Shown piece by piece: positions 14,059 through 34,256 of a stretch of DNA of 42,232 nucleotides. The position numbers and the translations under genes were made by a program. The notes beneath the pieces are model-generated. The model was not told the origin of the DNA and did not search any database. It saw only the letters and a program-made list of their open reading frames with translations. Every line of letters starts with the position of its first letter. Positions within the stretch are counted from its first letter, which is position 1. Source of the DNA: Litoreibacter sp. (GTDB lineage Bacteria; Pseudomonadota; Alphaproteobacteria; Rhodobacterales; Rhodobacteraceae); contig JAPORH010000055.1 of the NCBI GenBank assembly GCA_026710325.1, forward strand, positions 1 through 42,232, given 5' to 3'.

Positions 14059-14367
14059 ATGCCCCCTTTTGACCCGCTCGCCTTGCGACATGGCGACTTC
14101 GTGCTGGAAGCCTGGTCCAGTATCGGGGACGCGCGGATCAGCGCTCAAACCGGCGTGTCCAGTCAAGCAGCCGCGCAAAAGCTCGCACAGATGCGCCAAC
14201 TCAAAAGCGAACTGAAAGTGTTGCGGCGATCAGAGATACGCAGGCAAGATTTCCCGATCTCGGAGATCAACGGATGGTTCGAGCCATTGGAAAGCAGCTT
14301 GAGCAAAGCCGAGCTGTTCTTCGCCGGGAGACTGGCGGAGCTAAAAATGGAAGAGATCGTCCATTAA
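14059..14367 (+). CDS. Hypothetical protein, 102 residues
   Basis: Starts at ATG 14059 with GGAGA seven bases upstream. Predicted soluble, helical and charged, with a Gln/Lys-rich middle (AAAQKLAQMRQLKSELKVL) suggesting a coiled coil and a C-terminal helix of KAELFFAGRLAELKMEEI type. No family is recognised. Its TAA overlaps the stop of the convergent DUF4864 gene by 4 bp. Confidence 0.6.
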   Translation: MPPFDPLALRHGDFVLEAWSSIGDARISAQTGVSSQAAAQKLAQMRQLKSELKVLRRSEIRRQDFPISEINGWFEPLESSLSKAELFFAGRLAELKMEEIVH

Positions 14368-14837: not shown

Positions 14838-15218
14838 CTACTCTACCTCCAGCACCCGCTTTGCTACGCGAAAACACTCCAGCGCTTGCGGCACACCGCA
14901 ATAGATCCCGATGACATGAATAATTGCGCGAACTTCTTCGTGGCTAACGCCATTGTTGATCGCACCTTTGAGGTGAAGTTCCCATTCCGCCATTTTGCCC
15001 AAAGCGCCGATCATCGACAGATTTAGCATCGAGCGCGTCTTGGCATCGAGCGCGTCGTCGCCCCAACCGAACCCCCAGCACCAGGCGGTCATTGCCTCCT
15101 GAAACGGTCGGGTAAACTCACCAGCGGCGGCGAGGTTGTTTTCCACATATTCCGCGCCAAGTGTGGATTTACGCTGCTCCAATCCTTTCAGAAACAGGTC
15201 CTCGTCGAATGAGCTCAT
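14838..15218 (-). CDS. Carboxymuconolactone decarboxylase family protein
   Basis: 126 residues, an all-helical CMD domain. The catalytic-region pattern is MAEWELHLKGAINNGVSHEEVRAIIHVIGIYCGVPQAL by position 76-112 (His82 and Glu94/Glu95 visible). The relative PcaC decarboxylates gamma-carboxymuconolactone, but the family also includes other decarboxylases and AhpD-type peroxidases. The CxxC of AhpD is absent, favouring a PcaC-like chemistry. It is the last gene of the leftward seven-gene operon, 3 bp after the aldehyde dehydrogenase, so it probably handles a late carboxylated intermediate of that pathway rather than protocatechuate, for which no genes are seen. Confidence 0.85.
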   Translation of the reverse strand: MSSFDEDLFLKGLEQRKSTLGAEYVENNLAAAGEFTRPFQEAMTAWCWGFGWGDDALDAKTRSMLNLSMIGALGKMAEWELHLKGAINNGVSHEEVRAIIHVIGIYCGVPQALECFRVAKRVLEVE

Positions 15219-15221
15219 AAT

Positions 15222-16667
15222 CTATCCTTTCAAACGGATCGCAACATTTTTCGTTTGCACGTAGTTCCAAAGCGCCTCGCGCCCTTTTTCCCGACCGTAG
15301 CCGGATTTGCCGTAGCCGCCAAAGGGCGTCTCCACCCCACCTGCATACCATTCATTGACGAAGACCTGACCGGCCCGGAGCTGGCGCGCGGCCGAGGTTG
15401 CGCGGTCAATGTCACGCGTGAATACACCAGAAACCAAACCATAGGGCGTGCCGTTGGCGATCTCGATGGCCTCCGCGTCATCACGGAACTTCAAGACCGA
15501 CAGGACAGGCCCGAACACTTCGTCCTGCGCGATGGTCATATCTGGCGTCACGCCCGAGATGACGGTCGGCTCCAGAAACGCGCCTGGGATATTGAGCTTG
15601 CGCCCACCGGTCACGACCCGCGCGCCTTGTCCCTCCGCCGCGCTAACCATGTCTGCAGCACGGTCACGTTGACCCTCGGAGACCATCGCGCCCATCGTGG
15701 GCCCAAACTCCGGCTGCTCAGTACCGGGCAAAACCGTGAGCGACTTTGCGACCGAAACCATACGCTCAACTAACTGGTCATGGATACTGTCATGCGCAAT
15801 CACGCGGCTCATAGCGGAACAGACCTGGCCCGCGTTAAAATAAATGCCCCAACGGATGTCATTCTCAAACGCATCGAGATCGGCGTCGCTGTGCACGATA
15901 GCTGCTGATTTCCCGCCAAGCTCAAGGACACAGGGCACCACGTTTTGCGCCGCTGCGGTAGCAATTGCGATGCCCGTTGGCACAGAGCCTGTGAAAACGA
16001 TCTGGTTGACCTGCGGGTGCCCAGACAGAGCTGAACCAGCCTCATGCCCCAACCCACACAGGATGTTCACCGCACCCTTGGGCAGACCCACGGCTTCTGC
16101 GGCATGGGCAAACCATTCATTAGACAGTGGCGTCAGCTCTGGCGTTTTGATCACGCAAGCATTGCCGGTCGCCAAAGCAGCTGAAAGCGAGCGTGCAGTC
16201 ATCTCAACCGGGTAGTTCCACGGTATGATCTGGGCTGAAACCCCGAATGGCTCATAGGTCGTGAAGTCGAAATAGTCCTTGCCCAGCGGGATCGAGCGGC
16301 CTTCTACCGTCTCCGCCTGATTGCCGTAATACTCAAAATAGCGCGCCGCGCCTTCGACCTCGATCAGCGCTTCCCAAAGCGGTTTGCCCTGCTCAAGCGT
16401 TAGAACTTCGGCGACCTCATCCTTGTGCTCCAACAAATATCGGCCCATAGCCTGCACCATGCGGCCACGCTCCACCGGGCGCAAATCTGACAGGGCACCC
16501 GACATATGCACGCGGCGGGCGGCTTGCACTGCGCGGTCGACATCGGCGGCGTCGGCTAAGGCATGCTCGGCCAGTTTTTCACCTGTCCCCGGGTTGATCA
16601 CATCGATGCGCCCTGCCCCGCCATCGACCCAAGCGCCGTCGATATAGTTTTGCCAGTAATCTTTCAT
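15222..16667 (-). CDS. NAD(P)-dependent aldehyde dehydrogenase
   Basis: 481 residues, the usual length for the superfamily. Catalytic Glu249 lies in LELGGKSA, catalytic Cys283 in NAGQVCSA, the oxyanion Asn in IIPWNYP (Asn151), and the cofactor Gly motif is FTGSVPTG. It is closest in style to betaine-aldehyde/aminoaldehyde or semialdehyde dehydrogenases. Its ATG overlaps the stop of the sulfotransferase-like gene by 4 bp. In the cluster it would oxidise an aldehyde formed after demethylation, transamination or cleavage of the substrate; the exact aldehyde is unknown. Confidence 0.92.
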   Translation of the reverse strand: MKDYWQNYIDGAWVDGGAGRIDVINPGTGEKLAEHALADAADVDRAVQAARRVHMSGALSDLRPVERGRMVQAMGRYLLEHKDEVAEVLTLEQGKPLWEALIEVEGAARYFEYYGNQAETVEGRSIPLGKDYFDFTTYEPFGVSAQIIPWNYPVEMTARSLSAALATGNACVIKTPELTPLSNEWFAHAAEAVGLPKGAVNILCGLGHEAGSALSGHPQVNQIVFTGSVPTGIAIATAAAQNVVPCVLELGGKSAAIVHSDADLDAFENDIRWGIYFNAGQVCSAMSRVIAHDSIHDQLVERMVSVAKSLTVLPGTEQPEFGPTMGAMVSEGQRDRAADMVSAAEGQGARVVTGGRKLNIPGAFLEPTVISGVTPDMTIAQDEVFGPVLSVLKFRDDAEAIEIANGTPYGLVSGVFTRDIDRATSAARQLRAGQVFVNEWYAGGVETPFGGYGKSGYGREKGREALWNYVQTKNVAIRLKG

Positions 16668-17407
16668 GTCAGCGTAATCCGATGCTGGTAGAGATGGTCG
16701 TAGTGGGGTTTCATCCGTCGGTGCACGCGTCGCACGCGCTCGGGCGCGTCTTCAATCTCGACATAGCGGCGTTTCTGCGGCGTGAGCCCGGTGGATTTTG
16801 CCAGGTTGGCGTGAAAGCTGCCGCCGTCCCACCAGCTATGCGCCGACGGATCACCCCCGGCCTCCCAGCTCAAAGCATCGTCAATGAAGGGAATGCCAAC
16901 GCTCTCGCAAAAGGCTTCGGTCATGGCGGACGGATTTTCCAGCAGATCGTCGCTGTCGATCACTGGCGGTGGGGTGCCATGCAGCGCAGTCAGTAAATCA
17001 AACAACGCCCGCTGTTCGGGGAACCCTATCTCCAGCTCATCGAAATCGGGCCATTTGTTATAGACGGACGTGATCGTCTTGGCCGGGTCGCGGATCAGGA
17101 AGGCATGGGCAAAATGGCCCAGAAACTCCGGCGTCCACATATGGTTGATGTAATGCGGGAAATCCTTGAAAAAAACCGGGCCTTTCTCAGCCCGCGCTTT
17201 GATATCCTCCCACACGCTTTCGATCGTCAGGCCGGGCGTGGTCTTCTCGCCCTCGGCAAAGCGTGGCCAGAATGGGTCCTCCCCCTGATACCAAGCCTCG
17301 CCAAACGGCTCATGCAGGCAATCTAGGTCGCCGCGCTGGCGCATCATCCACTCAAACGCGGTGGAGGTGGAACGCGGGATAGCCCAAAGGGCTATGATCT
17401 TGTTCAT
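16664..17407 (-). CDS. Sulfotransferase-like P-loop protein
   Basis: 247 residues. The N-terminal strand and loop WAIPRSTSTAFEWMM is the 5'-phosphosulfate-binding P-loop of PAPS sulfotransferases, and FLIRDPAKTITSVYNKW corresponds to the 3'-phosphate-binding motif. The start at 17407 is chosen over an upstream frame extension because GGAGAG lies nine bases ahead and it overlaps the previous gene's stop by 4 bp. A sulfotransferase is unexpected in a catabolic operon: it might sulfate an intermediate, or the fold might serve another reaction. Bacterial members of this group are mostly uncharacterised. Confidence 0.75.
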   Translation of the reverse strand: MNKIIALWAIPRSTSTAFEWMMRQRGDLDCLHEPFGEAWYQGEDPFWPRFAEGEKTTPGLTIESVWEDIKARAEKGPVFFKDFPHYINHMWTPEFLGHFAHAFLIRDPAKTITSVYNKWPDFDELEIGFPEQRALFDLLTALHGTPPPVIDSDDLLENPSAMTEAFCESVGIPFIDDALSWEAGGDPSAHSWWDGGSFHANLAKSTGLTPQKRRYVEIEDAPERVRRVHRRMKPHYDHLYQHRITLT

Positions 17408-18222
17408 CTCAAGCTCTCCAACAAACGACTTTGAGGCGTCCCAGGCGCGAGACCGAGGTCTTTCATAATCCGCCAATACAGCGCGGTGTCATGGCCGATC
17501 ACAGGCTTGCCGAGTTTGGCTTCCATGTCCCGTGCCAAGTGCAAAGGCCTGAGCGGCAGGCCATCAGGACCCACCCTGAAATTGCACATGCCGTTGATCA
17601 GATAGGCATCAGCGTCAGGGGCTTGCTCAGCGACATAGGTGAAGCTTGTTTCGAAAAGGTCGCCGTCGAAAATCCAGCGTTTGACATTCACTGCGTCTTG
17701 ATCCGGGAACCAGCCTTGATCGACGAAATTACCGGCCCAAAGCACATCGAATCCGGCCTCTTCCAGAAAACCAACAGTCCCCTGCCACCACTCCGGCCAA
17801 TGATAGGCACCGTTCAACGCGACTTTCTCAACGTCCATCTCCCGCAAAGCCTCGACCATCGCGTAGCCCGCCATGTGGAACCGCGTCCCGTATTTCTCCG
17901 ATAAATCCGCACAATGCTGCCGAATGCCTTCGACGCCCAGGCCGCTCGCATGCACCCAGTTCGACCCAACCTGCCCGCAAACATCGACCCCGTTGCGCGA
18001 CATGCAATGCACGAAATCCTCGAGCATGCCGAAGTTCTTTTTCCTCTGATCGAGCCCGTGGACGTAATCAGGCACATGCAGCATCCAGCCATGCACCCCA
18101 ACCGTTGGCGGGCACATGCGCAAGAAATCCGACGGGGCCGCGTCAAAGTCAAACGGCGGGCAAGTAAAGCCCACCTGATGCGGGAAGAGCTTTTGCTCTG
18201 GCGTCCAGCTTTTTGGCATCAT
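17404..18222 (-). CDS. Asp/Glu racemase-superfamily protein (maleate isomerase/arylmalonate decarboxylase-like)
   Basis: 272 residues. Two cysteine regions mark the superfamily: VDVCGQVGSNW with Cys82 in the N-terminal lobe and LINGMCNFR with Cys213 in the C-terminal lobe, followed by LEAKLGKPVIGHDTALYWR-like text (about 232-251) that matches the end of maleate isomerases and arylmalonate decarboxylases. The first cysteine sits in a changed context compared with the usual GCTSGS, so the two-cysteine mechanism is not certain. Members racemise, isomerise or decarboxylate carboxylic acids without cofactor. It is coupled to both neighbours by 4-bp overlaps. The substrate is unknown; PcaC- and DddQ-like neighbours suggest a small dicarboxylate. 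Confidence 0.72.
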   Translation of the reverse strand: MMPKSWTPEQKLFPHQVGFTCPPFDFDAAPSDFLRMCPPTVGVHGWMLHVPDYVHGLDQRKKNFGMLEDFVHCMSRNGVDVCGQVGSNWVHASGLGVEGIRQHCADLSEKYGTRFHMAGYAMVEALREMDVEKVALNGAYHWPEWWQGTVGFLEEAGFDVLWAGNFVDQGWFPDQDAVNVKRWIFDGDLFETSFTYVAEQAPDADAYLINGMCNFRVGPDGLPLRPLHLARDMEAKLGKPVIGHDTALYWRIMKDLGLAPGTPQSRLLESLR

Positions 18223-18641
18223 GGTTGGGCGCCCTGGTCAAGCTCGGCAGACGCCGGGAATTGCGGCAGGTCGTCCGAGATGTGCAGCCAGCTCAGACGC
18301 TCACCGGTATGGCAATGAAGCTGGGGCGCATAGGCTTCCGGGTCGTCCAAGCACGCAGCATATAGATGTATCTCCCCCGGCCATCTTGTGCTTTCAAAGC
18401 TGATCTGGCTGCCACAACGCCCGCAAAAACCTCGCGTCGCAATCTCCGACGATTTGTAGAAGCTGCGCTCCCCCGTCCAAGTCACATGCTCCGGGTCGAA
18501 ACCCATCCAGGCGACTATCGGCGCCGAGGCAGACCGTCTGCAGCTTTCGCAATGGCAAAGCGCCGTCCATTTCGGCGGGGCAGCGAGCCTAAACCGAATA
18601 GCGCCACACAGGCACCTGCCCTCCTGCCAGTTATCAGCCAT
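18219..18641 (-). CDS. GFA family protein (glutathione-dependent formaldehyde-activating type)
   Basis: 140 residues from ATG 18641. Zinc-ligand cysteines are all present: Cys10 and Cys12 (GRCLCG), Cys29, 31 and 34 (CHCESC) and Cys73 and 76 (GFCGRCG). This matches the Gfa/CENP-V fold, whose founding member was linked to S-hydroxymethyl-glutathione formation from formaldehyde; many members have other or unknown roles. It lies directly after the Rieske oxygenase (8-bp overlap), which would release formaldehyde on N-demethylation, so a formaldehyde-handling role fits the context. The upstream ATG at 18653 is possible but less likely. Confidence 0.85.
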   Translation of the reverse strand: MADNWQEGRCLCGAIRFRLAAPPKWTALCHCESCRRSASAPIVAWMGFDPEHVTWTGERSFYKSSEIATRGFCGRCGSQISFESTRWPGEIHLYAACLDDPEAYAPQLHCHTGERLSWLHISDDLPQFPASAELDQGAQP

Positions 18642-19704
18642 CCACGGCCTCACGCATCCAGCGTTGCAAATGCATGACCGGATGCTCGGAATTCACGCCG
18701 CCCTTTGGGTCCACCACCAAAGGCCCCGGCACATAGCCGCGTGATTTCAAGCCGCGATGCACGGATTCAACCAGGTGGATATCCTCTTCCACCGTCGTCG
18801 CCCGGTCCTGCTGCGCGAGCTTGCGCACCTTCTCATCGTCAATTCCACCAACGGAATACCAGCCCCGCCACACGACAACATGATCCGCGTCTATCGCGCG
18901 CCAGTGATAGGTGTTCAGCACATTGCCCGGATAGACCTGGAAGGAAAACATCGGCCAGAGGAACCAGCTCGAATACTCATCAAAATGCTGAAAGCCCGAA
19001 TGGATGTCATAGGTCATGCTGTCCAGGCTTTGGCATTCCGTGGTGTGGCGCAGGCACTTGCCTTGCGGTTGGATGTCATAGGTTTCCGGCTTGACCACGC
19101 CATTGGCAAAAGTCGGGTGGTTCAGCGAGCAATGGTAGCATTCGGAGTAATTCTCGACCGACACCTTCCAGTTGCAATTCTCAGGGATCTCCACCCACTC
19201 CAAAGGAACCAGCTCGGCCCAGTTGGGAACCCACTCCTCCAGTTCCGCCCGCGCGCCGGGAAACCACTCTTCCATCGGCGCGGCTTCCGGGTCGAGGTTT
19301 ACGAACAGAAAACCCAGAAACTCCTCGGCCTTCACCTCGGTCAGGCAAACGCTTGATTTGTCGAACCCCTCGACCGCCTTGATATTCGGCCCGGCGCGCA
19401 GCTCCCCCGTGAGTTCATACGTCCAGGCGTGGTAGGGGCAGACCACAACGCGCGTCGTGCCGGAGCCTTCGACCAGCTGATGCGCGCGGTGCTGACAAAC
19501 GTTGTAGAAGACCCGAATTTTCTCGTCCCGCCCACGAATAGCGAACAGGCTCTCGCCCGCGATCTCAAACGTCTTGTAGGACCCCACGCCCTCAAGCTCG
19601 GAGACATGGCACCCAAATTGCCACGTTTTGGCGAGGACCCCGTCGGATTCCAGATGGAAAACCTGTGGGTCGGTGTAATACCGCGCGTCTAAAGATCGGA
19701 TCAT
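18634..19704 (-). CDS. Rieske oxygenase alpha subunit, quaternary-ammonium demethylase type
   Basis: 356 residues. The Rieske 2Fe-2S ligands are Cys70, His72, Cys89 and His92 (VCQHRAH and VCPYHAW). The mononuclear iron ligands are His191 and His196 in ECYHCSLNH, with the third carboxylate probably Asp308 in EEDIHLVE. The bridging residue that couples the centres, Asp in classical dioxygenases, is Glu188 here, as in the carnitine oxygenase CntA and glycine-betaine monooxygenase GbcA group. This favours N-demethylation or hydroxylation of a quaternary amine, giving formaldehyde. No reductase gene is present in the cluster. It overlaps the RpiR stop by 4 bp and the GFA gene by 8 bp. Confidence 0.9.
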   Translation of the reverse strand: MIRSLDARYYTDPQVFHLESDGVLAKTWQFGCHVSELEGVGSYKTFEIAGESLFAIRGRDEKIRVFYNVCQHRAHQLVEGSGTTRVVVCPYHAWTYELTGELRAGPNIKAVEGFDKSSVCLTEVKAEEFLGFLFVNLDPEAAPMEEWFPGARAELEEWVPNWAELVPLEWVEIPENCNWKVSVENYSECYHCSLNHPTFANGVVKPETYDIQPQGKCLRHTTECQSLDSMTYDIHSGFQHFDEYSSWFLWPMFSFQVYPGNVLNTYHWRAIDADHVVVWRGWYSVGGIDDEKVRKLAQQDRATTVEEDIHLVESVHRGLKSRGYVPGPLVVDPKGGVNSEHPVMHLQRWMREAVDG

Positions 19705-20588
19705 GCATCCTCCGCGTGATAGAGGCCAAGCTGGTGGCGGCGTTTGTGGAAGGTTTCGACCCGCTCCACGATCTCATCACTCGCAACGGCGATGACAAAG
19801 GACAAGAGCGTCTCCAACAAAGCGATGATGCTGACGGAGGACGGGAAGAATTGCGGCGTCTCGACAGAGACGACAAAGCTGTGATCGGCCTCGAGGATAA
19901 TCGGGCTGGCCGGACTGTCAGAGATCGACACGATCGTCATGCCCTGCTCTTTCGCGATGCGCACTGCCTCAACAACCTCTGACCGGAACGGTTTGCAAGT
20001 CACCGCGATCAGCACATCTTGGGCGTCGGCCCAAGCCAGATCATCCACCGGTGTGGAGCCGGGGCGCGGGATCGCGTGAAACTCCGTCATGCCGGTGGAG
20101 GCCAGGTAAGTAAAATTGCGTGCGACCGAATGATTGACGCCCACACCAAGGGTAAAAACCCGCCGCGCGGACCAAATCGCCTCAGCCGCCGTATTGAGCT
20201 CTTGAGCGGAAATCCCGGCGAACGTGTCCTCAATATTTTGCAAAACGTCATGGACCATGTCGGCGTAGAGCCCGCCAAGATCACCCGTCTTGCGGATGTC
20301 TTGCAACCAGCGGGCTCGGTCAGGAAAATCTGCGGCACCGCGCCGGATCGCCTCCCGAAACGGAGCACGGAAATCCTCATAGCCCTCAAAACCCACCTGC
20401 CGCGCCATGCGGACCACGGTGTTTGGCTTCACATTGGCGGCCTCAGCAATCTCCCGCACAGTCGAAACGCCCACATCACGCGGGTTCTCCAACACGTAAG
20501 TCGCCGCCTTGCGCGCCTCGGGTGTCAGCTCTGACAGCTCCCCCGCCAAACGCTCGAGAATCGAATTTGATACATTTGTCCCATTCAT
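19701..20588 (-). CDS. MurR/RpiR-family transcriptional regulator
   Basis: 295 residues. The N-terminal helix-turn-helix of RpiR type covers about 15-95 (VSTVREIAEAANVKPNTVVRM). The C-terminal SIS domain has VFTLGVGVNHSVARNF and ISDSPASP. SIS domains usually bind phosphosugars, yet no sugar kinase or sugar transporter is present. The gene leads the leftward operon and faces the rightward one across 69 bp, so it very probably controls both. It may recognise the osmolyte or an intermediate. Repressor or activator status cannot be read from the sequence. Confidence 0.9.
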   Translation of the reverse strand: MNGTNVSNSILERLAGELSELTPEARKAATYVLENPRDVGVSTVREIAEAANVKPNTVVRMARQVGFEGYEDFRAPFREAIRRGAADFPDRARWLQDIRKTGDLGGLYADMVHDVLQNIEDTFAGISAQELNTAAEAIWSARRVFTLGVGVNHSVARNFTYLASTGMTEFHAIPRPGSTPVDDLAWADAQDVLIAVTCKPFRSEVVEAVRIAKEQGMTIVSISDSPASPIILEADHSFVVSVETPQFFPSSVSIIALLETLLSFVIAVASDEIVERVETFHKRRHQLGLYHAEDA

Positions 20589-20657
20589 GATTGACGATGG
20601 TACTTATGTTCGATTAGCCTGTCGAGCGAAAAACGTAGAGTCGCGAAAGGAAGAACC
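20589..20657. promoter_or_regulatory. Shared divergent promoter region of the two catabolic operons
   Basis: The 69-bp gap between the RpiR start and the demethylase start must contain both promoters and probably the regulator's operator. It is A/T-rich compared with the flanking genes. AAGGAAG (about 20647-20653) is the ribosome site of the rightward operon. The imperfect palindrome ATCGAATTTGAT lies just inside the RpiR start. No convincing operator repeat can be named. Confidence 0.5.
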
Positions 20658-23108
20658 GTGGCACAGGAATTTCCAACTCAGGCCCGCGTGGTGATCGTGG
20701 GCGGTGGCGTCATGGGCGTGGGACTTGCGTACCATTTGGGACATGAAGGCTGGGGCAACGATACCGTTTTGCTTGAAAAGGCGGAGCTGACCTCCGGCTC
20801 AACCTGGCACGCCGCTGGCCAGATCACACATTCCACCAGTTCCTTCGGCCTCGGCAAATGCGTCGACTACAATATCGACCTCTATTCCGGTGCTTTGGAG
20901 AAGGAGACGGGCCAGCCTGTGACATGGCATGGCTGCGGCTCCTTCCGGCTGGCCTATACAGAAGACGAAATGGACTGGCTGCGCCACACCTTGTCTGTCG
21001 GCCGCTCACTTGGATTTAACATCGAGCTGGTCGGCACGGAGGAGATCGCCAAGCTGCACCCGTTCTACAATCTCGACGGTGTTATCGGCGCGCTGCACAC
21101 ACCCGATGACGGCCATGTCGATCCAACGAACGTAACCATGTCGATGGCCGCAGGTGCCCGCCAGAAAGGCGTGCGGATCATCCGGCACTGCCAGGCGACC
21201 AACATTACACAAGACGCGAATGGCGAGTGGCTCGTCGAAACCCCCCAAGGCACAATCCGCTGCGAACATGTCGTCAACGCGGGCGGCACCTATGCGCGGC
21301 AAATGGGCGAATGGTCGGGGCTACAGCTGCCCATGACTTCGATGACGCACCATTATTTCGTGACTGAGAACGTGCCCGAGTTTGAAAACCTCGACACCGA
21401 ACTGCCTGTGATCCGCGACGACAAAAAGGTCTCAGGCTACATCCGGATGGAGCAGAAAAAGGGCCTGATCGGGATATACGAGAAAGAGAACCCGAACTCT
21501 GTCTGGCACGACCATTGCCCGTGGGACTACGAAAACTGGCTCTTTGATGCCGATTACGACCGGGTGATGCCGTATCTGGAAGAAAGCCTTAACCGCATGC
21601 CGATCTTTGCTGAGCTTGGCATCACGCGGGAGGTGCATGGCGCGATCTCCCACCCGCCGGACGGCAACCCGCTGATTGGCCCCGCGCCGGGTGTGCGCAA
21701 TTACTGGTGCTGCTGCGGTACGCAGATCGGCATTGGCTGGGGGCCGGGTCTTACCCGCGAGCTTGCCCGATGGATGGTGCATGGCGCGGCGGATATCTCG
21801 ATGCGCGAATACGACCCGCGCCGCTTCGGCAGCTACGCCACGAAAGACTGGCAGGTGGTGAAGGCTGAGGAAGACTACTGCCTGCGCCACGAAATCCCCT
21901 TCCCGCATTTCAACCGCCTGGCCGGGCGGCCAATCAAGCCATCCCCCTTACATGAGCTCTTGAAAGAAAAAGGCGCCGTGCATGAAGAGAATTACGGTTT
22001 CGAGCGCCCGCGCTTCTTCGCCAAAGGCATCGCGCAGGAGGATCACTACTCCTTCAACCGCACGCCCGTTGACGACATGGTCGCAGCTGAGGTCAAAGCC
22101 GTGCGGGAAGCTGCCGGGATCATGGACGTCACCGCCTTCACGAAGGTTCTGGTTGAAGGCCCTGACGCCTACGCGCTGTTGGACCGCCTGACGGCTAACC
22201 GGATGCCTCAGAAAGTCGGATCCATCACGCTGACACACATGCTCAACCGCCGCGGCCGGATCGAGCTGGAAACGACGATTGTGCGCATGGCGGAGGATCG
22301 CTTTTACCTCGTCTGCGCTGCATTCTTCGAGCAACGCCTTCTCGACCATCTCGCACAACAGATGGACGACGAAAACGCAACCGTCACCGCGCTGTCCGAC
22401 CAATGGTCCGCCCTATCCCTCAACGGCCCTCGTTCTCGCGATATCCTCGCCGGGTGCACGTCAGCCCCGCTCGACAACAAAAGCTTCCGCTGGCTCTCCG
22501 CCCAAGAGATCGAGGTCGCGGGCCACAGCATCTGGGCCTTCCGCATGTCCTATGCGGGCGAGCTTGGCTGGGAATTCCACATGCCAAACGCCGCCTGTCT
22601 CGACGTCTACAACGCCTTGACCGACGCCGGCGCACCACTCGGCATGGTCGATTATGGCTCCTTCGCGATGAACGTGATGCGGATGGAGAAAGGCTTCAAA
22701 GGCGCGGGCGAGCTGACTAATGAGGTCACCTTGGCCGAGGCCGATGTCGGCCGGTTCGCACGCACGGACAAGGAGTATCTGGGCCGCGACAAGACCTTAA
22801 ATGAGGACCTACCCTGGGTCTGCGCCTATCTGGAGATTGAACCCGACGGCAAGGCCGACGGCCACGGCGGGGAGGCCGTGATGCATGAGGGTCAGGTTGT
22901 CGGCTCCACCGCCTCGGTCGCCTTCGGCCCGACGGTCGGCAAGATTCTGGCCTTCGCCTATATCAAACCTTTTGCCGCCGAGCCCGGCACGGCGCTAGAG
23001 GTGGTCATCCACGGGGAACCCCGCGCGGCGAAAGTCCTGGGGGAACCGGCCTATGACCCGGCCAGCGAGAAGCCCCGCACCGACGCGATGCAAGAGGCCG
23101 CAGAGTGA
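20658..23108 (+). CDS. Dimethylglycine-dehydrogenase-like flavin demethylase (FAD plus GcvT domains)
   Basis: 816 residues. The N-terminal DAO-type FAD domain has VVIVGGGVMGVGLAYHL and STWHAAG, whose His51 corresponds to the covalent flavin site of dimethylglycine and sarcosine dehydrogenases. A linker (FAO_M) follows, then GcvT and GcvT-C barrels from about residue 420 (MDVTAFTKVLVEGPDA, and AYAGELGWEFHMP-like text near 635), expected to bind tetrahydrofolate and capture formaldehyde as methylene-THF. Expected reaction: oxidative N-demethylation of a tertiary or secondary methylamine acid. The GTG start follows AAGGAAG. First gene of the rightward operon; it probably acts on the product of the Rieske enzyme. 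Dimethylglycine itself is only one possibility. Confidence 0.9.
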   Translation: MAQEFPTQARVVIVGGGVMGVGLAYHLGHEGWGNDTVLLEKAELTSGSTWHAAGQITHSTSSFGLGKCVDYNIDLYSGALEKETGQPVTWHGCGSFRLAYTEDEMDWLRHTLSVGRSLGFNIELVGTEEIAKLHPFYNLDGVIGALHTPDDGHVDPTNVTMSMAAGARQKGVRIIRHCQATNITQDANGEWLVETPQGTIRCEHVVNAGGTYARQMGEWSGLQLPMTSMTHHYFVTENVPEFENLDTELPVIRDDKKVSGYIRMEQKKGLIGIYEKENPNSVWHDHCPWDYENWLFDADYDRVMPYLEESLNRMPIFAELGITREVHGAISHPPDGNPLIGPAPGVRNYWCCCGTQIGIGWGPGLTRELARWMVHGAADISMREYDPRRFGSYATKDWQVVKAEEDYCLRHEIPFPHFNRLAGRPIKPSPLHELLKEKGAVHEENYGFERPRFFAKGIAQEDHYSFNRTPVDDMVAAEVKAVREAAGIMDVTAFTKVLVEGPDAYALLDRLTANRMPQKVGSITLTHMLNRRGRIELETTIVRMAEDRFYLVCAAFFEQRLLDHLAQQMDDENATVTALSDQWSALSLNGPRSRDILAGCTSAPLDNKSFRWLSAQEIEVAGHSIWAFRMSYAGELGWEFHMPNAACLDVYNALTDAGAPLGMVDYGSFAMNVMRMEKGFKGAGELTNEVTLAEADVGRFARTDKEYLGRDKTLNEDLPWVCAYLEIEPDGKADGHGGEAVMHEGQVVGSTASVAFGPTVGKILAFAYIKPFAAEPGTALEVVIHGEPRAAKVLGEPAYDPASEKPRTDAMQEAAE

Positions 23109-24202
23109 CCGATATCCCCAAAACCATGCGTGCGATGGTCTTGAAACGCCATGGCGACATGGATGCGCTGGAGTATGAGACCGACTGGCCTGTGCCTGTT
23201 CCGCAAGGCCGCGAGGTCCTGATCAAGGTCGCCGCAACCGGCATGAACAACACCGATGTAAACACGCGCGCGGGCTGGTACTCCAAATCGGTCACAGACG
23301 CGACCACGGGTGGCGCCTATGATCTCGACGCGAAGGCGGACAACACATGGGGCGGCGCGGGCGTGCAATTCCCGCGCATTCAGGGCGCGGATGTATGCGG
23401 GCATGTGGTAGCGACTGCCGACCCACAAGACGCGCATCTCATTGGAAAACGAGTTATTACCGACAACTGGCTGCGCGATTGGGATGACCCGTTGAACATG
23501 CATCAAACCGGCTATTTTGGGTCCGAGGCCGATGGTGGCTATGCCGAATATTGCAAAATCGACGCGCGCAACGTGCATGCGGTGCAAAGCGACCTGACCG
23601 ACGTTGAGCTGGCCACTTTCTCCTGCTCCTACTCCACCGCGGAAGGCATGCTGGCCCGCGCCAATGTTGCCGAAGGCGACTGCGTCTTGATTACCGGCGC
23701 ATCGGGCGGCGTGGGAGGAGCGCTCATCCAGCTAGCCAACCGGCGCGGCGCGGTAACCATCGCCATGGCGTCCGAGAGCAAGCACGCCGAAGTCGCCAAG
23801 ATGAACCCCGCGCACCTACTCACACGCGGGCCAGAAGACCTGAAAACCGCGCTGAAAGACGCGACCGGTAAAGACAGCGTCGACGTGGTCGCCGACATCG
23901 TTGCAGGTCCCTATTTCGGCACGTTAATCGACGCGCTGGATCGCGGCGGGCGCTACACGACCTCGGGCGCCATTGCTGGGCCAATCGTCGATCTGGACGT
24001 GCGCACGCTTTATTTGATGGACCTGACCTTCACCGGCTCCACCGTGATCCCGCCACAGATCATGACCGATCTCATAGGCTATATCGAAAGGGACGAGGTC
24101 AAACCGATAGTGGCTGGCACCTACGCGCTCCAAGATTTTAAAACGGGTCAACAAGCCTTCATCGACAAGACCCACACCGGAAATATAGTGGTGGTGCCTT
24201 GA
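23105..24202 (+). CDS. Medium-chain dehydrogenase/reductase family oxidoreductase
   Basis: 365 residues with a GTG start inside the demethylase stop (GTGA). The N-terminal GroES-like domain has GMNNTDVNTRAGWY where zinc alcohol dehydrogenases carry catalytic Cys, so it is probably a zinc-independent, quinone-oxidoreductase-like member. The Rossmann motif is VLITGASGGVGGALIQLA. An inserted segment rich in Asp/Asn (about 55-80) is unusual. It would reduce or oxidise an enal/enoyl or alcohol intermediate with NAD(P)H. It does not resemble the acryloyl-CoA reductase AcuI closely by eye, which weighs against a standard acrylate route after the DddQ-like protein. Confidence 0.85.
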   Translation: MTDIPKTMRAMVLKRHGDMDALEYETDWPVPVPQGREVLIKVAATGMNNTDVNTRAGWYSKSVTDATTGGAYDLDAKADNTWGGAGVQFPRIQGADVCGHVVATADPQDAHLIGKRVITDNWLRDWDDPLNMHQTGYFGSEADGGYAEYCKIDARNVHAVQSDLTDVELATFSCSYSTAEGMLARANVAEGDCVLITGASGGVGGALIQLANRRGAVTIAMASESKHAEVAKMNPAHLLTRGPEDLKTALKDATGKDSVDVVADIVAGPYFGTLIDALDRGGRYTTSGAIAGPIVDLDVRTLYLMDLTFTGSTVIPPQIMTDLIGYIERDEVKPIVAGTYALQDFKTGQQAFIDKTHTGNIVVVP

Positions 24203-24783
24203 GCGCGATTGCAGCCCTCCTCGCGGCGGTCCGTGCCCTGCATGAGCGCACGCCGGAGCTTGCCTCCTATGCGCCGTGGCCGTCAGACTTGTCCCCTTTC
24301 GAGGTCCGTCCGCATTTGGTCGAGGCTGCACAAAACCTAGGCGTCCAATCCCTCCGAGGAACACGCGGCACGGCGCGCGTCATTAAGGCCTTGCGCCGCG
24401 CCGCGCCAGAGCTGGAATGGCGCCAGACCTACACGGCGGAGGAGGTTGGCGAGCGTTTCCTACGAACTTACGGCTATGTCGAGCTGTTCGGCCCGACAGG
24501 CCATTTTCGGTCCAAACAACTGCGCGGTTATCTGGGGTTTTGGGGCCCGGATCTCACCTATGATTGGCACGCGCATGAGGCGGAGGAGCTGTATTTCACC
24601 CTCGCAGGCCAAGCCGTCTTCGCCGCGCGTGGCGCGTCAAATGTCTCGCTTAAGCCAGGGCAAGCGCGCAGCCATGCGGCCAACCAACCTCATATGATGA
24701 TCACATTGGATCAGCCCTATTTATGCTACGTGCTCTGGCGCGGCGCGGGGCTGGAGGGTCTGCCCCGGATGGTCGCCTCATGA
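24199..24783 (+). CDS. DddQ-like cupin, DMSP lyase family
   Basis: 194 residues with a TTG start in the previous stop (TTGA). A single C-terminal cupin has the features of DMSP lyase DddQ: ELEWRQTYT before the barrel; Tyr121, His124, His126, Glu130 and Tyr132 in YDWHAHEAEELY; and His165 in NQPHMM, the positions that hold metal and catalytic tyrosine in DddQ. The ending YLCYVLWRGAGLEG is also shared. DddQ cleaves dimethylsulfoniopropionate to DMS and acrylate. However, relatives in this cupin group are known whose main substrate is not DMSP, and here the gene sits among betaine-type demethylases and enolases. Lyase chemistry by proton abstraction is likely; DMSP as the true substrate is uncertain. 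Confidence 0.82.
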   Translation: MSAIAALLAAVRALHERTPELASYAPWPSDLSPFEVRPHLVEAAQNLGVQSLRGTRGTARVIKALRRAAPELEWRQTYTAEEVGERFLRTYGYVELFGPTGHFRSKQLRGYLGFWGPDLTYDWHAHEAEELYFTLAGQAVFAARGASNVSLKPGQARSHAANQPHMMITLDQPYLCYVLWRGAGLEGLPRMVAS

Positions 24784-25886
24784 AGATCATCCGCATCCGC
24801 ATCTACAAGACCGATCTTCCTTATGTGGGCGGCGCTTACGTTTGGGGCGCGGGCAACGCGATTGAGGTCGCAAAGGCCAGTGTCGTAGTGATCGACACAG
24901 ATGCTGGACTGCAAGGATGCGGGGAGTTCACCCCCTGCGGCGAGAATTACATGGTGGCTCACTCGGAGGGCGTGGAAGCTTTGGCCCGGCTCGCGGCCCC
25001 AAAGCTTCTGGGCGAAGACCCACGTCAGGTCGCCCGTATCGAACAGCTGCTCGACCACACAGTGCAAGGGCATGGCTACGCCAAAGCGCCATTTGACGCG
25101 GCCTGCTGGGACCTTCTGGGCCAGGCCTGCGACCAGCCCGTCTGGATGCTCATGGGCGGCAAGCTCACCGACGGTGCGCCCATGTACCGTGTCGCCCCGC
25201 AAAAGGCGACGGAAGAGACGTTGGCAGAGATGCAACGCTACCGCGCCCAGGGCTACCGCCAATTCCAAATCAAAGTCGGCGGCGATTGGAAAACCGACAT
25301 CGACCGCATCCGCGCCGGTGTCGCGCTGTTGGAGCCGGGCGAAAAAGCCATGGCCGACGCCAATCAGGGTTGGAGGGTCGACAACGCCATCCGCGTCGCC
25401 CGCGCCACACGCGATCTGGATTTCATTCTGGAACAACCCTGTCGGACCTATGAGGAATGCCAACAGGTGCGCCGCGTGGCCGAGCAGCCCATGAAGCTTG
25501 ATGAATGCGTGACCGGCATGGCCGCCGCGCAACAGATCGTGGCCGACCGGGGGGCAGAGATTTGTTGTTTGAAAATCTGCAACCTCGGCGGGCTTTCCAA
25601 AGCGCGCCGGGTGCGTGATTTTCTGGTCGAGAATCGCATCCCCGTGGTCAGCGAAGACACATGGGGCGGGGAGATCACAACCGCCGCAGTCGCCCATTTC
25701 GCGGCCTCGACCCCGGCGGAGTATCTGCAAAACTCGACCGATCTGATGAATTACAACACCCGCTCCACGGGTATTGGCGGCGCACTCGCCCACGACGGTA
25801 AGCTTTATTCACCTGATAAGCCCGGCCTCGGCGTGACTCCCGACTTTGAAAGCCTTGGGGCACCTGTGGCGGAGTACGCGGCATGA
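24780..25886 (+). CDS. Enolase-superfamily protein 1 (mandelate racemase/muconate lactonizing type)
   Basis: 368 residues; ATG 24780 overlaps the cupin stop by 4 bp. An N-terminal capping domain is followed by a beta/alpha barrel. Metal ligands are Asp193 (ADANQGW), Glu218 (LEQPC) and Asp241/Glu242 (KLDEC). Active-site lysines are Lys165 (FQIKVGG) and Lys265 (CCLKICNLGG) on opposite faces, the MLE-subgroup dyad used for 1,1-proton transfer and cycloisomerisation; the first Lys of the usual KxK is Gln163. In hydroxyproline-betaine epimerase HpbD a Lys-Lys pair performs C2 epimerisation. It may racemise a betaine or N-methyl amino acid, or dehydrate an acid; the substrate is unknown. Confidence 0.85.
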   Translation: MKIIRIRIYKTDLPYVGGAYVWGAGNAIEVAKASVVVIDTDAGLQGCGEFTPCGENYMVAHSEGVEALARLAAPKLLGEDPRQVARIEQLLDHTVQGHGYAKAPFDAACWDLLGQACDQPVWMLMGGKLTDGAPMYRVAPQKATEETLAEMQRYRAQGYRQFQIKVGGDWKTDIDRIRAGVALLEPGEKAMADANQGWRVDNAIRVARATRDLDFILEQPCRTYEECQQVRRVAEQPMKLDECVTGMAAAQQIVADRGAEICCLKICNLGGLSKARRVRDFLVENRIPVVSEDTWGGEITTAAVAHFAASTPAEYLQNSTDLMNYNTRSTGIGGALAHDGKLYSPDKPGLGVTPDFESLGAPVAEYAA

Positions 25887-26989
25887 AAATCACCCGCCTC
25901 ACTGTCTACCATGTCGACCTGCCGCTAGAGCATCCCTATTGGCTCTCCGGTGGGCGGCTGAAGTTCGAAACCCTCGACGCGACTTTCGTGAAACTGGAGA
26001 CCGATGAGGGCATGATTGGATGGGGCGAGGGCACACCCTGGGGCCACACCTACGTCCCCGCTCATGGCCCCGGCATCCGCGCGGGGATTGAGACGATGGC
26101 ACCTTTCATCCTCGGCCTTGATCCGCGCAAAGTGCTTGACATCGAGCGCGCGATGGACCTGGCCCTGCCCGGTCATCTCTATGCGAAAAGCCCTATCGAC
26201 ATGGCGTGCTGGGACATTGCGGGCCAAGCCGCCGGCCTGCCGATCGCGGATCTGATGGGCGGCGGGTCGCGGACGCCGCGCCCGATTGCCTCCTCCGTCG
26301 GGGCCAAAACCATTGAAGAAACGCGCGACGTGATCGAGCGCTACCGCAAGCGCGGCTACATTGCCCATTCCGTCAAGATCGGCGGAGATGTTGCCCGCGA
26401 CATTGCCCGGGTGCGCGACGTCGAGAGCCTGAAACAACCCGGCGACATCATGCTCTATGACGTCAACCGTGGCTGGACCCGTCAGCAAGCGCTGCGCGTA
26501 ATGAGCGCCTGCGAGGACCTGAACGTGATGTTCGAGCAGCCTTGCGAAACGCTCGACGACATCGCCGCGATCAGTCACAAACACGCCTCCGTCGTCTCGG
26601 TCGATGAAAGCCTCGTCACGCTGCAGGACGCCACCCGCATCGCGCGTGACGGGCTGGCGGAGGTGTTTGGCATCAAACTCAACCGCGTCGGCGGGCTAAC
26701 CAAAGCCGCGCGGATGCGTGACGTGGCGCTGGCCCATGGGATCGACATGTTTGTGATGGCCACCGGCGGCTCGGTGCTCGCGGATACTGAGGCGCTGCAT
26801 CTGGCCGCGACCATCCCTGACGCCAATTGCCACGCCGTCTGGGCCTGCCAGGACATGCTGACGGTCGACATCGCGGCCGGGCGCGGCCCGCGCAACAAAG
26901 ATGGTCACTTGCACCTGCCGGAGGCCCCCGGCCTAGGCGTGCACCCGGAGGAGGAGGCGCTCGGTCAGCCGGTCGCAGTTTACGAATGA
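25883..26989 (+). CDS. Enolase-superfamily protein 2 (mandelate racemase/muconate lactonizing type)
   Basis: 368 residues, start overlapping the previous stop by 4 bp. Metal ligands fall at the same numbers as in its left neighbour: Asp193 (YDVNRGW), Glu218 (FEQPC) and Asp241/Glu242 (VDESL). Lysines are Lys165 (SVKIGG) and Lys265 (FGIKLNRVGG). The sequence differs most in the capping loops (LPLEHPYWLSGG, ETPWGH-like text near 50), which set substrate choice, and it ends without the TWGG motif, having MATGGSV instead. So it is a diverged paralogue, probably with a distinct substrate or stereochemistry. The function within the pathway is inferred only. Confidence 0.85.
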   Translation: MKITRLTVYHVDLPLEHPYWLSGGRLKFETLDATFVKLETDEGMIGWGEGTPWGHTYVPAHGPGIRAGIETMAPFILGLDPRKVLDIERAMDLALPGHLYAKSPIDMACWDIAGQAAGLPIADLMGGGSRTPRPIASSVGAKTIEETRDVIERYRKRGYIAHSVKIGGDVARDIARVRDVESLKQPGDIMLYDVNRGWTRQQALRVMSACEDLNVMFEQPCETLDDIAAISHKHASVVSVDESLVTLQDATRIARDGLAEVFGIKLNRVGGLTKAARMRDVALAHGIDMFVMATGGSVLADTEALHLAATIPDANCHAVWACQDMLTVDIAAGRGPRNKDGHLHLPEAPGLGVHPEEEALGQPVAVYE

Positions 26990-28089
26990 AGATCAATAAG
27001 CTCACCCTGTGGTCCGTCGATCTGACCAGCCACGAGACCTACTACATGGCCGAGGGCAAAACCTGCGCCACGGTCGAAACCCATGTGCTGTGTCTGGAGA
27101 CCGACAACGGCCTGAAAGGCTGGGGGGAGGTCTGCCCTATCCCCCATTACTTGCCCGCTTTCGCCAAAGGCGTGCCAAGCGCCATTACCGAGATGGCCCC
27201 CGAAATCCTGGGTATCACGCCAACCGGCATCGACGCTCCGATGCGCAAGCTGGATGGGTTTTTGCAAGGCCATCTGCACGCCAAATCGATTGTCGATATG
27301 GCGCTTTGGGATCTTTATGGCAAAGCAACGGGCCTGCCGCTCTACCAGCTTTTGGGCGGGCGCACGCGGGCCGACATGCCGCTCTACCACTCCATCACCT
27401 GCATCGCGCCCGATGAGATGGCTCGCATCGCGCGGGAGGCCTATGCGACCGGCATCCGCCAGTTTCAGGTCAAGCTCGGCGCAGATGCCGATCATGCCGC
27501 AGACGCAGAACGCCTGACAAAAGTGCGCGAGGCCGTGGGCCCCGGCCCCATCGTCTATGGCGACTGGAATTGCGGCGCGACAAAGCTGCAGGCCACACGC
27601 ACGGGCCGCGCCGTCGCGTATCTCGACATCATGTTGGAGCAGCCTTGCAAAACGCTGGAAGACTGCGCCGCTGTGCGTGCAGCCACCGGACTGCCAATGA
27701 AAATCGACGAGGGTGCCTATGATCTGGCATCGCTGATGCGAGCAGCAGAGCTGGGCGTGCTGGACGCCGTGGCGCTGAAACTGTCCAAATTCGGCGGCCT
27801 CTCCGCCATGCGCCGCGCACGCGATCTGACGGTGCATTTGGGCGCCGAAATCTGCTCCGAATGCACCTGGGGCTCAGACATTGTCACCGCCGCTTCCTTG
27901 CATTTCGCGGCCTCAACCCCGCAGGGCTCACTGCTCAACACCTGCGATCTTTCTGGCTACGTCGCCCCGCGCGTCGCCCCGGATTGCCCGACCCGCAAAG
28001 ACGGGCGTATCGCCCCGCCCGAAGGCCCCGGCCTTGGCGTAACCCCCGACCTCGACATCCTTGGCGACCCAATTTTGGAGATCAGCTAA
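26986..28089 (+). CDS. Enolase-superfamily protein 3 (mandelate racemase/muconate lactonizing type)
   Basis: 367 residues from ATG 26986, again a 4-bp overlap with the gene before. Metal ligands Asp193 (YGDWNCG), Glu218 (LEQPC) and Asp241/Glu242 (KIDEG); lysines Lys163 (FQVKLGA) and Lys265 (VALKLSKFGG), the spacing I recall for HpbD. After strand seven it has CSECTWGSDIVTAA, as in protein 1. The capping-domain loop has YYMAEGKTCATVETHV. An epimerase or racemase acting on an amino-acid betaine or an acid derived from it is the best guess. Confidence 0.85.
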   Translation: MKINKLTLWSVDLTSHETYYMAEGKTCATVETHVLCLETDNGLKGWGEVCPIPHYLPAFAKGVPSAITEMAPEILGITPTGIDAPMRKLDGFLQGHLHAKSIVDMALWDLYGKATGLPLYQLLGGRTRADMPLYHSITCIAPDEMARIAREAYATGIRQFQVKLGADADHAADAERLTKVREAVGPGPIVYGDWNCGATKLQATRTGRAVAYLDIMLEQPCKTLEDCAAVRAATGLPMKIDEGAYDLASLMRAAELGVLDAVALKLSKFGGLSAMRRARDLTVHLGAEICSECTWGSDIVTAASLHFAASTPQGSLLNTCDLSGYVAPRVAPDCPTRKDGRIAPPEGPGLGVTPDLDILGDPILEIS

Positions 28090-28090
28090 A

Positions 28091-29368
28091 ATGCTCAAAA
28101 TACAATCCCAAGACGACTGGATCGCGCGCGCAGGCGAAGTACTGCCCGCCGCAGGTTTCGGCAATTTCGATCCCGGCATTCTGATCGCACGCGGCGAAGG
28201 CTCCCGCGTCTGGGACGAGGATGGGCGGGAATATGTCGACTACCTGATCGGCTCCGGCCCTATGCTTTTGGGCCATGGCCACCCGGAGGTGATGGAGGCG
28301 GTACTGGAACAGCTTCCAAAGGGCATGACGTTTTTCGCAAATAACTCCAAGGGCGTAGAGCTCGCCGAAGCCATAGTCGAGGCCGTCCCTTGTTGCGAAC
28401 AGGTCCGCTTCGTGGCCTCCGGCGGGGAGGCGGATATGTACGCCATCCGCCTCGCACGGGCCTATACTGGAAAAGACAAAATCCTGAAATTCGAAGGCGG
28501 CTATCACGGTATGAGCGCGGAGGCACAGATGAGCCTCGCCCCCTCCGCCCGGGTCAATTTCCCACAAGCCGTTCCAGACAGTGCGGGCATCCCACAGGCC
28601 GTCGCTGACCAAATGTTGATCGCGCCCTACAACGACCTTGCTGCGGTGGAGGCCCTGCTTAACGAGCATAAAGACGTGGCCGCCATCATCGCCGAGCCTT
28701 TGCAACGGATCATCCCCGCGCAGCCCGGCTTCCTGCAAGGCCTGCGCGATCTGTGCGACAAATACTCGGTCCTGCTGATTTTTGATGAGATCGTCACCGG
28801 CTTCCGCCTCGCCTATGGCGGCGCGCAGGAGAGGTACGGCGTGACGCCGGACATTTGCACCCTCGGCAAGATCATCGGTGGTGGCTTCCCGCTGGCAGCT
28901 TTGGGCGCCAGCACCGAGATCATGGCGCATTTCGACAAGGGCAAAGCTGGTGCGGAAAACTGGCTCATGCAGCTTGGCACTTTGTCGGGTAACCCTGTTG
29001 CCTCCGTCGCCGGGCTCAAAACAATGGAAGTGCTGAGCCGCGACGGCGCTTACGAAAGGCTGCGCGCAACAGGAAAACGCTTGCAAGACATGCAAACCAA
29101 AGCGCTCGACGCGGCCGGGATCGCCCATCAGATTTGCGGCGACGAGACCCTCTTCGACGTCTATTTCACCGATCACGCCTGCACCGATTACCGCAACGCC
29201 CAGCATGACGACCCAGCCCGCAACGCGCTCTATAACAAGGTGCTAAGAGAGAACGGTGTTTTCAAATCACCCGGTAAGCTCTACCCGCACCTGGCGGTGA
29301 CAGATGCGGATCTGGAGCTAACCGAGACAGCTGTGAAGGCCGCGGTCAAAGCAATCTCCGAAGCTTAG
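28091..29368 (+). CDS. Class III PLP-dependent aminotransferase (glutamate-1-semialdehyde aminomutase-like)
   Basis: 425 residues. PLP Lys260 lies in [12 protein letters not shown], the ring-contacting Asp232 in [12 protein letters not shown], and the phosphate loop is [16 protein letters not shown]. It resembles glutamate-1-semialdehyde aminomutase, but the pathway context and the lack of heme genes nearby argue that it is a catabolic omega- or beta-amino acid transaminase. ATG 28091 follows GGAG at ten bases, one base after the enolase stop. Last gene of the rightward operon: it could remove nitrogen after demethylation, giving an aldehyde or keto acid for the aldehyde dehydrogenase. It overlaps lysK by 4 bp, convergent. 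Confidence 0.88.
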
Positions 29369-34192: not shown

Positions 34193-34256
34193 GCCCCATA
34201 AATTGCCGAACAGGCCCGCGCTGGCAAGTCCACAAAACCCCTGATACGCAAGAGTG

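Follow-up and report, generated by a model that had tools for sequence, protein, structure and literature searches.

Loci for the use of hydroxyproline betaine (hpb loci) reportedly bring together a Rieske demethylase, a demethylase resembling dimethylglycine dehydrogenase (DMGDH) and an MLE-type enolase, with proline and hydroxyproline enzymes downstream. A trio of Rieske, DMGDH-like and MLE proteins is likewise present in an island of 14 open reading frames (ORFs) that fills positions 14838-29368 of a 42,232-nucleotide stretch of DNA from Litoreibacter sp. (assembly GCA_026710325.1, contig JAPORH010000055.1; this whole stretch is called the window below). Compared with hpb loci, the island adds an aminotransferase (AT3), an aldehyde dehydrogenase (ALDH), a zinc-type MDR dehydrogenase (ADH), a DddQ-family cupin, a predicted sulfotransferase (SULT), an arylmalonate-decarboxylase-like protein (AMDase) and two more MLEs.

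Other described systems resemble the island in single parts. Carnitine monooxygenase (CntA) and glycine betaine monooxygenase (GbcA) are Rieske enzymes for quaternary amines, as its oxygenase probably is, but no reductase partner is found among the 14 genes, and dimethylglycine dehydrogenase has the domain order of its flavoprotein (DAO, FAO_M, GCV_T, GCV_T_C) but different gene partners. In CurM-type enzymes, sulfonation of a hydroxyl group drives a decarboxylative elimination; the sulfotransferase domains of CurM and olefin synthase (4gbm, 4gox) share their fold (TM ~0.5) and the motifs for 3'-phosphoadenosine 5'-phosphosulfate (PAPS) with SULT, which differs in being a stand-alone protein in a catabolic-looking island and in having human tyrosylprotein sulfotransferase 2 as its top fold match. 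Finally, an MDR gene adjoins dddQ in Ruegeria pomeroyi (SPO1593-SPO1596) and Roseovarius nubinhibens (ISM_14095; dddQ1, dddQ2), as it does here, and is the only neighbour named in the available passages of the source (PMC3338564). No published description of the whole gene set was found in a literature search, most subscription papers lying outside its reach.

The island is probably a catabolic unit for a betaine-type (N-methylated and carboxylated) zwitterion, with a core route and optional feeder modules. It would belong with the betaine-type catabolic islands, its unusual parts being the sulfotransferase-decarboxylase module and the DddQ gene. A preliminary description, made from the sequence alone, had proposed a unit for one methylated, betaine-like osmolyte. 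The likeness of the oxygenase to CntA (5e-61) and of the flavoprotein to DMGDH (2e-144), BCCT-type genes in or near three related islands and the co-occurrence of the two arms all support this at the level of the substrate class; a single substrate, however, fits less well, since the core lacks the optional modules in many genomes, which favours a core route with feeder routes.

Gene order, co-occurrence and the shared gap

As the preliminary description had it, seven genes run leftward (minus strand) and seven rightward (plus strand) from a gap of exactly 69 bp (20589-20657). The 4-bp overlaps said to join nearly all genes are found at 9 of the 12 junctions within arms, the other three being that of GFA and Rieske, which overlap by 20 bp, and two short gaps (+3 and +1 bp). 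The minus-strand order from the left is CMD, ALDH, SULT, AMDase, GFA, Rieske and RpiR, and the plus-strand order is DMGDH, ADH, cupin, MLE1, MLE2, MLE3 and AT3. Profile scores of Pfam and NCBIfam, on which the 14 family assignments rest, agree with the families first named, which had omitted one gene of the 14, ADH (23105-24202).

Dozens of further genomes have the two arms together, which rules out a chance run of overlapping ORFs. In a set of 55 full-span loci (window not counted), selected by their Rieske gene alone and hence with no requirement for DMGDH or RpiR, a right-arm gene accompanies the Rieske gene in 54, DMGDH is present in 49 and RpiR in 50; the pairing of the two operons proposed from one sequence thus holds elsewhere. 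Single genes were counted in 53 full-span islands including the window. This sample started from the window and 87 loci whose Rieske genes match at 40% or more; L084 was dropped for Rieske DNA identical to that of L051, followed by 7 of the remaining 87 that had neither DMGDH nor RpiR and by 27 of the remaining 80 that were short on one side. Only identical Rieske DNA was removed; close relatives may be double-counted. The commonest gene is RpiR (51), followed by DMGDH (50), MLE3 (43), CMD (42), ADH (38), AT3 (36) and MLE2 (34); cupin and MLE1 (21 each), ALDH (20), AMDase and SULT (15 each) and GFA (13) are found in fewer than half.

Presence of these genes is correlated. AMDase and SULT are never apart (both in 15 islands, neither in 38; p=1.6e-13), ADH is linked to MLE2 (p=6e-8), MLE3 to AT3 (p=5e-5) and the cupin to MLE1 (p=0.0016), and GFA is linked to AMDase as well, these p-values being too small because related genomes are treated as independent. 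The island is modular, with a core of RpiR, Rieske, DMGDH, CMD, MLE3 and aminotransferase genes to which ADH-MLE2, cupin-MLE1 and AMDase-SULT modules are added, and in many genomes the core is found without ADH, the cupin, MLE1, MLE2 or the AMDase-SULT module. Some genomes hold the parts at two sites: G141 has a core in L052 and CMD-ADH-cupin in L158, while in G200 the core (L062) is separate from SULT-AMDase-GFA, which L161 holds along with a cupin. In a count over more loci, SULT is accompanied by AMDase in 24 of 25 (L051 and L084 being the same island), the exception being L114.

The divergent gap measures 58-171 bp in 72 other loci. When the 73 gaps are aligned, TTGACnnTGGTA is found in 52, TGTCnA in 61 and both, 29 nt apart, in 45; the conserved element of this putative control region is TTGACgATGGTA ... 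TGTCnA. From its conservation it looks like a common operator or promoter, which would speak against independent regulation of the arms. The conserved gap, shared between arms that co-occur, rules out two unrelated operons. A search of the own genome with the gap motif, made in order to locate a transporter, returned the gap without any mismatch and three further sites with 3 mismatches each (0 for a reversed-pattern control). All three lie inside long open frames, about 3 being expected by chance on our own estimate, and they are not counted; no second convincing RpiR site was thus found in that genome.

Two further genes are seen in some relatives. A small second cupin (~94-97 aa) occurs in L094 (3524-3808), L060, L063, L071, L077, L095 and L109, and sits between MLE1 and MLE2 in L060, L063, L077 and L094. 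The gene after Rieske in L062, L065 (Pfam DSBA) and L095, like the one after DMGDH in L072, is of the DSBA fold.

Catalytic parts of the island

The Rieske oxygenase (18634-19704, minus strand) was assigned by family profile and is carnitine-monooxygenase-like, its best solved relative being CntA. C70, H72, C89, H92, H191, H196 and D308, presumably the cluster and iron ligands, are invariant in 16 orthologues, and the GbcA model (NF058607) scores 144.8 bits, far from its cut-off of 670. Across the gap lies the DMGDH-like FAD/folate demethylase (20658-23108, plus strand), which by family profiles and PDB match is closest to dimethylglycine dehydrogenase (4pab, 5l46; 1.8e-144) and whose folate part is distantly DmdA-like (58.9 bits). 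On the minus strand, the gap is bordered by RpiR (19701-20588; PF01418, PF01380), and the remaining genes of that arm outside the AMDase-SULT module encode a GFA-type formaldehyde/glutathione protein (18219-18653; PF04828, 2e-22), ALDH (15222-16667; PF00171, 4e-155) and CMD, a PcaC-like carboxymuconolactone-decarboxylase-family protein (14838-15218; PF02627, 1.2e-18).

The three enolase-superfamily proteins MLE1 (24780-25886), MLE2 (25883-26989) and MLE3 (26986-28089), all on the plus strand and the last of them a core member, were assigned by family profile, PDB match and residues. None looks dead, since K165, D193, E218, D241 and K265, which we take to be the two catalytic lysines and three acidic metal ligands, are invariant in 18 of 18 aligned MLEs, and their low identity (MLE2 37% and MLE3 36% to MLE1) points to old paralogues. 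The cis-3-hydroxy-L-proline dehydratase model (NF043002) is the best for all three, at 399, 315 and 328 bits against an equivalog cut-off of 500; they fall in the subgroup of that enzyme and HpbD (structures 4mgg, 4h2h and 4e8g, the last two of the HpbD type), with scores under the equivalog level. AT3 (28091-29368, plus strand) is a class III aminotransferase of the glutamate-1-semialdehyde aminomutase (GSAM) or beta-aminotransferase type by family profiles and PDB match. ADH (23105-24202, plus strand; family profile) is not AcuI, an acrylate role being ruled out by its score of 24.8 bits with the AcuI acrylyl-CoA reductase model, for which the cut-off is 440.

Some relatives carry neighbours that bear on these enzymes. 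In the Mesorhizobium plasmid island, an FAD oxidoreductase and ETF alpha/beta genes adjoin the aminotransferase gene, and in Mesorhizobium erdmanii (L099) the corresponding flavoprotein gene has ferredoxin-reductase-type domains; electrons for DMGDH and Rieske could plausibly pass through such proteins. A BCCT-type gene lies in or beside L050, L057 and L072, the one in L057 with PF02028 at 1e-147. L110, L111 and L112, without a DMGDH match, encode to the left of their island Rieske gene a 654-656-aa OYE-type flavoprotein together with one or two additional Rieske proteins, whose genes run divergently from the island Rieske gene. The best models and first structures for this flavoprotein are reductases, with amine dehydrogenases next, and it could be a replacement demethylase.

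SULT (16664-17407, minus strand, start ATG at 17407) is a predicted PAPS-dependent sulfotransferase by profile (PF19798, 8.6e-19), motifs and fold. It carries both PRSTST and RDP...S, by their role presumably the PAPS-binding motifs, in keeping with the sulfotransferase-like label it had been given, and its fold matches PAPS sulfotransferases at a TM of ~0.5, human TPST2 coming first and the CurM domain third. The comparison with CurM is extended by its strict neighbour, a decarboxylase-like gene (AMDase; 17404-18222, minus strand). This protein remains below the cut-offs for arylmalonate decarboxylase in both Pfam (PF17645; 23.7 versus 25.9 bits) and NCBIfam (21.6 versus 225 bits), and in Foldseek its fold is nearest to 4ix1, an uncharacterised Rhodococcus protein, then to arylmalonate decarboxylase (2vlb, 6.2e-12) and maleate isomerase, for which reason its earlier label, Asp/Glu-racemase-like, is corrected here. 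Arylmalonate decarboxylases have one conserved Cys in the C-terminal half, the N-terminal Cys not being obligatory, while isomerases and racemases of this fold are two-Cys enzymes. Cys213 is present in 15 of 16 aligned AMDase proteins, while position 82 is Cys in 9 and Ala in 7; the protein of L072 has C82 and P213. An apparent need for one Cys alone would place AMDase closer to arylmalonate decarboxylase than to the two-Cys enzymes, but the window protein has both.

The surroundings of the AMDase-SULT module vary. In L112 an APS-kinase/CysN piece lies just ahead of it, in L114, where AMDase is absent, SULT is in line with CysNC and with two ORFs that look by eye like CysD and CysQ, and in L072 a choline-sulfatase-like gene (226 bits, cut-off 433) precedes AMDase. 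A search for AMDase in other contexts covered 398 genomes of the phylum and found it in 3, the own genome among them and all three from one family; none of the plasmids searched carried it. Sulfotransferases matching at 34-37% occur on three Streptomyces plasmids, and the one inspected lies among genes of the nonribosomal peptide synthetase (NRPS) type.

The cupin (24199-24783, plus strand; PF16867, 1e-18) matches DddQ, a lyase of dimethylsulfoniopropionate (DMSP), in the PDB at 1.6e-52. Its Y121, H124, H126, E130, Y132 and H165 correspond to the catalytic Tyr120, His123, His125, Glu129, Tyr131 and His163 of DddQ in Ruegeria lacuscaerulensis numbering, as given in the available part of PMC4437653. 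In the 21 island cupins, five of the six are invariant and H126 is kept in at least 90%. The family given in the preliminary description therefore stands, while the link to published dddQ neighbourhoods had been missed, as had the strict pairing of SULT with AMDase. The best match of the cupin in the island of R. lacuscaerulensis (L098) is the crystallised DddQ itself (272 bits). At 1e-15, 62 of 248 family genomes have a DddQ-family cupin, and such a cupin is present in 24 of the 46 genomes with a Rieske orthologue versus 18 of the 202 without (p=3e-10, uncorrected for kinship). L110 (16082-17317) encodes an M24 protein that is DddP-like at 260 bits, under the cut-off of 600, and two ORFs of L112 (16062-17173) cluster with it; neither locus has a cupin match, and given that score we do not claim the M24 protein as a replacement for DddQ.

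A proposed route and its rivals

The core route would begin with the Rieske oxygenase, which would take off the first N-methyl group as formaldehyde, and go on with the DMGDH-like flavoprotein, transferring further N-methyl groups onto tetrahydrofolate. MLE3 would shift or remove the proton beside the carboxylate (epimerisation or dehydration) and AT3, being of the GSAM type, would take the freed amino group. Where present, ALDH would oxidise an aldehyde and GFA deal with formaldehyde, and RpiR would control both arms from the 69-bp gap. The optional feeders would bring in substituted relatives of the core substrate: ADH and MLE2 by oxidation and epimerisation, the DddQ-type cupin and MLE1 by alpha-proton abstraction and beta-elimination on an island intermediate, and SULT and AMDase by PAPS-dependent sulfonation of a hydroxyl coupled to decarboxylation. 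It may be speculated that AT3, ALDH and AMDase act in sequence on a beta-amino-acid betaine, from amine to aldehyde, substituted malonate and acid. A bolder version can be put forward only tentatively, and we doubt it: a new betaine pathway in which DddQ natively beta-eliminates an island intermediate, with DMSP cleavage as a side reaction, and a SULT-activated hydroxyl is expelled by the AMDase-like decarboxylase. Such sulfonation-driven catabolism would reuse curacin olefin-forming chemistry catabolically.

DddQ is regarded as one of the main DMSP lyases of the sea despite its poor affinity, but if its native substrate lies in the island, marine dddQ gene counts do not simply measure the production of the climate-active gas dimethyl sulfide (DMS). 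More generally, the island predicts an unassigned route for a methylated solute in alphaproteobacteria, gammaproteobacterial genomes and plasmids and, if the proposal is true, gives a sulfotransferase a catabolic use.

Several observations weigh against this proposal. The 14 genes of the window island include neither a Rieske reductase nor a transporter; CMD, present in 42 of 53 islands, has no clear role, and ALDH (20/53) and GFA (13/53) are found in a minority. The MLEs are most like proline-type enzymes, as would be expected for a cyclic betaine. Class III aminotransferases act mostly on non-alpha amino groups; transamination after demethylation therefore presupposes an acyclic substrate. 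The 50 strongest DddQ hits (E up to 1.1e-30), sorted by hand with G174 placed by coordinates only, divide into 23 inside the island and 27 outside, some of these on short contigs; 6 of the 27 adjoin one or more island-type genes (ADH, CMD, SULT-AMDase, MLE2-like) and 21 do not. DddQ is thus not confined to the island, which cuts against an island-only role. It also acts on DMSP in vivo, since DMS falls by 97% in R. pomeroyi and by 20% in R. nubinhibens when dddQ is mutated, according to the accessible part of PMC5395565.

An enlarged hpb-type locus, in which the MLEs would epimerise or dehydrate the ring amino acid of hydroxyproline or proline betaine, is unlikely. The Rieske, DMGDH-like and MLE combination follows the hpb logic, and the three MLEs share the cis-3-hydroxy-L-proline dehydratase model as their best and resemble solved members of that clade, yet every score is under the equivalog cut-off, none of the 14 family assignments is a proline- or hydroxyproline-specific downstream enzyme and the aminotransferase linked to MLE3 is ill-suited to a ring amine. 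That the cupin is instead the physiological DMSP lyase of a DMSP-centred island, whose other genes serve DMSP-derived or sulfonium compounds, we consider less likely again. Its catalytic residues are intact, the folate part of DMGDH is distantly DmdA-like and dddQ mutants do produce less DMS. DMSP induces dddQ (PMC5395565, in part); the accessible text of PMC4437653 describes the induction of dddP and dddQ as modest, 1-4 fold. However, the cupin is found in only 21 of 53 full-span islands, there is no acrylate gene among the 14, and the Km of DddQ for DMSP is 22 mM in the same portion of PMC5395565. The MDR gene of R. nubinhibens, in the available passages of PMC3338564, failed to correct an acrylate-sensitive E. 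coli YhdH mutant. The own genome, in addition, has on another contig dmdA (652 bits) beside an AcuI-like gene (429 bits, cut-off 440); that DMSP route can therefore do without the island.

A second route for a common osmolyte (carnitine, glycine betaine or choline) ranks below both, as distinctly improbable. It would agree with carnitine monooxygenase as the best match of the Rieske protein and with the BCCT-type gene in or near three islands, but R. pomeroyi, whose dddQ has the same kind of MDR gene, seems to use other proteins for these substrates, which makes them less likely: on all three it raises CdhABC, BetABC and a glycine betaine methyltransferase (PMC12478193, in the passages available), and its carnitine transporter (SPO2995-2998) is encoded away from SPO1593-1596 (PMC10130141, likewise in part). 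The argument rests on published passages. Lastly, it is very unlikely that the island makes or modifies a sulfated zwitterion with the sulfotransferase, oxygenase and aminotransferase as tailoring enzymes. The predicted PAPS sulfotransferase, the PAPS-supply genes beside it in two relatives and the lack of a transporter conserved with the island would fit, but SULT is present in only 15 of 53 islands, the core consists of demethylases and an aminotransferase, and there is no synthase, ligase or exporter among the 14 genes. The catabolic unit with a core route and feeders is the reading that we retain.

Empty site, distribution and surroundings

In the window, the island lies between a 136-aa gene that is DUF4864-type by eye (14364-14774, minus strand) and a gene named by eye as class I lysyl-tRNA synthetase (LysRS; 29365-30942, minus strand). 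In the only other genome of the genus among 248 family genomes (G171), LysRS stands directly beside the left-flank gene, ~60 bp away, with UvrB next; the island is missing, a Rieske search having given no match at 1e-60, and the window island occupies exactly that gap. The window also has several more small genes between the left-flank gene and UvrB. With one such genome only, gain and loss of the island look the same. In 120 relative loci, within the stretch covered, neither LysRS nor the left-flank gene of the window found a match at 1e-20, and no cluster of neighbouring ORFs, antisense ones included, is shared by more than 8 loci. The absence from one same-genus genome searched and the differing surroundings elsewhere rule out a locus inherited throughout the genus; judging from these comparisons, the 14-gene block was most likely gained or lost as one unit and is probably mobile. 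The right arm has a rather high base composition (0.59-0.64, versus 0.52-0.61 outside the island), without a striking difference overall. Comparison of the flanks revealed no clear boundary repeat and the window contains no tRNA, no other search for boundaries or integrases having been made.

Rieske orthologues of at least 49% identity are found in 46 of the 248 family genomes, the own genome included; surroundings of up to 20 kb were read in 40, the others being the own genome, G174, G198, G041, G236 and G102. Plasmids of Sulfitobacter (typed as conjugative), Roseovarius, Mesorhizobium and Ruegeria carry orthologues of 68-87% identity, and island genes are present on the three of these four plasmids whose surroundings were read. 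Among the best 80 matches listed, from which the loci of the named collection were taken, further carriers are Ruegeria, Roseovarius, Leisingera, Nioella, Pararhodobacter and M. erdmanii, as well as a Roseibium metagenome-assembled genome (MAG), Thioalkalivibrio sp. HK1 and gammaproteobacterial MAGs. At ~40% identity and below, hardly any other island gene adjoins the Rieske match, an exception being L128, with DMGDH and ADH at 48-51%.

On the Ruegeria sp. SCSIO 43209 plasmid (L156), one small gene separates the island from a phn C-P lyase cluster, and the gene table of this locus, which is incomplete, contains no RpiR gene. On the Sulfitobacter sp. SK012 plasmid (L154, 2382-3800), a sulfatase-like gene and a MarR regulator lie ~1.3 kb past the aminotransferase end of the island. 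Elsewhere in the window, genes named by eye from their translations include a light-sensing set (5512-9000), in which a bacteriophytochrome-like histidine kinase (6436-9000) overlaps a heme-oxygenase-like gene (5924-6439) accompanied by a response regulator (5512-5964). At 2073-5501, a LysR-type regulator adjoins a TcuA/TcuB-like pair (flavoprotein plus iron-sulfur membrane protein), which would suit the use of tricarballylate or a citrate-type compound (also by eye). By eye, two adjoining minus-strand ORFs at 32665-34537, of 343 and 257 aa, resemble parts of a single D-Ala-D-Ala carboxypeptidase gene that a frameshift or sequencing error may have split.

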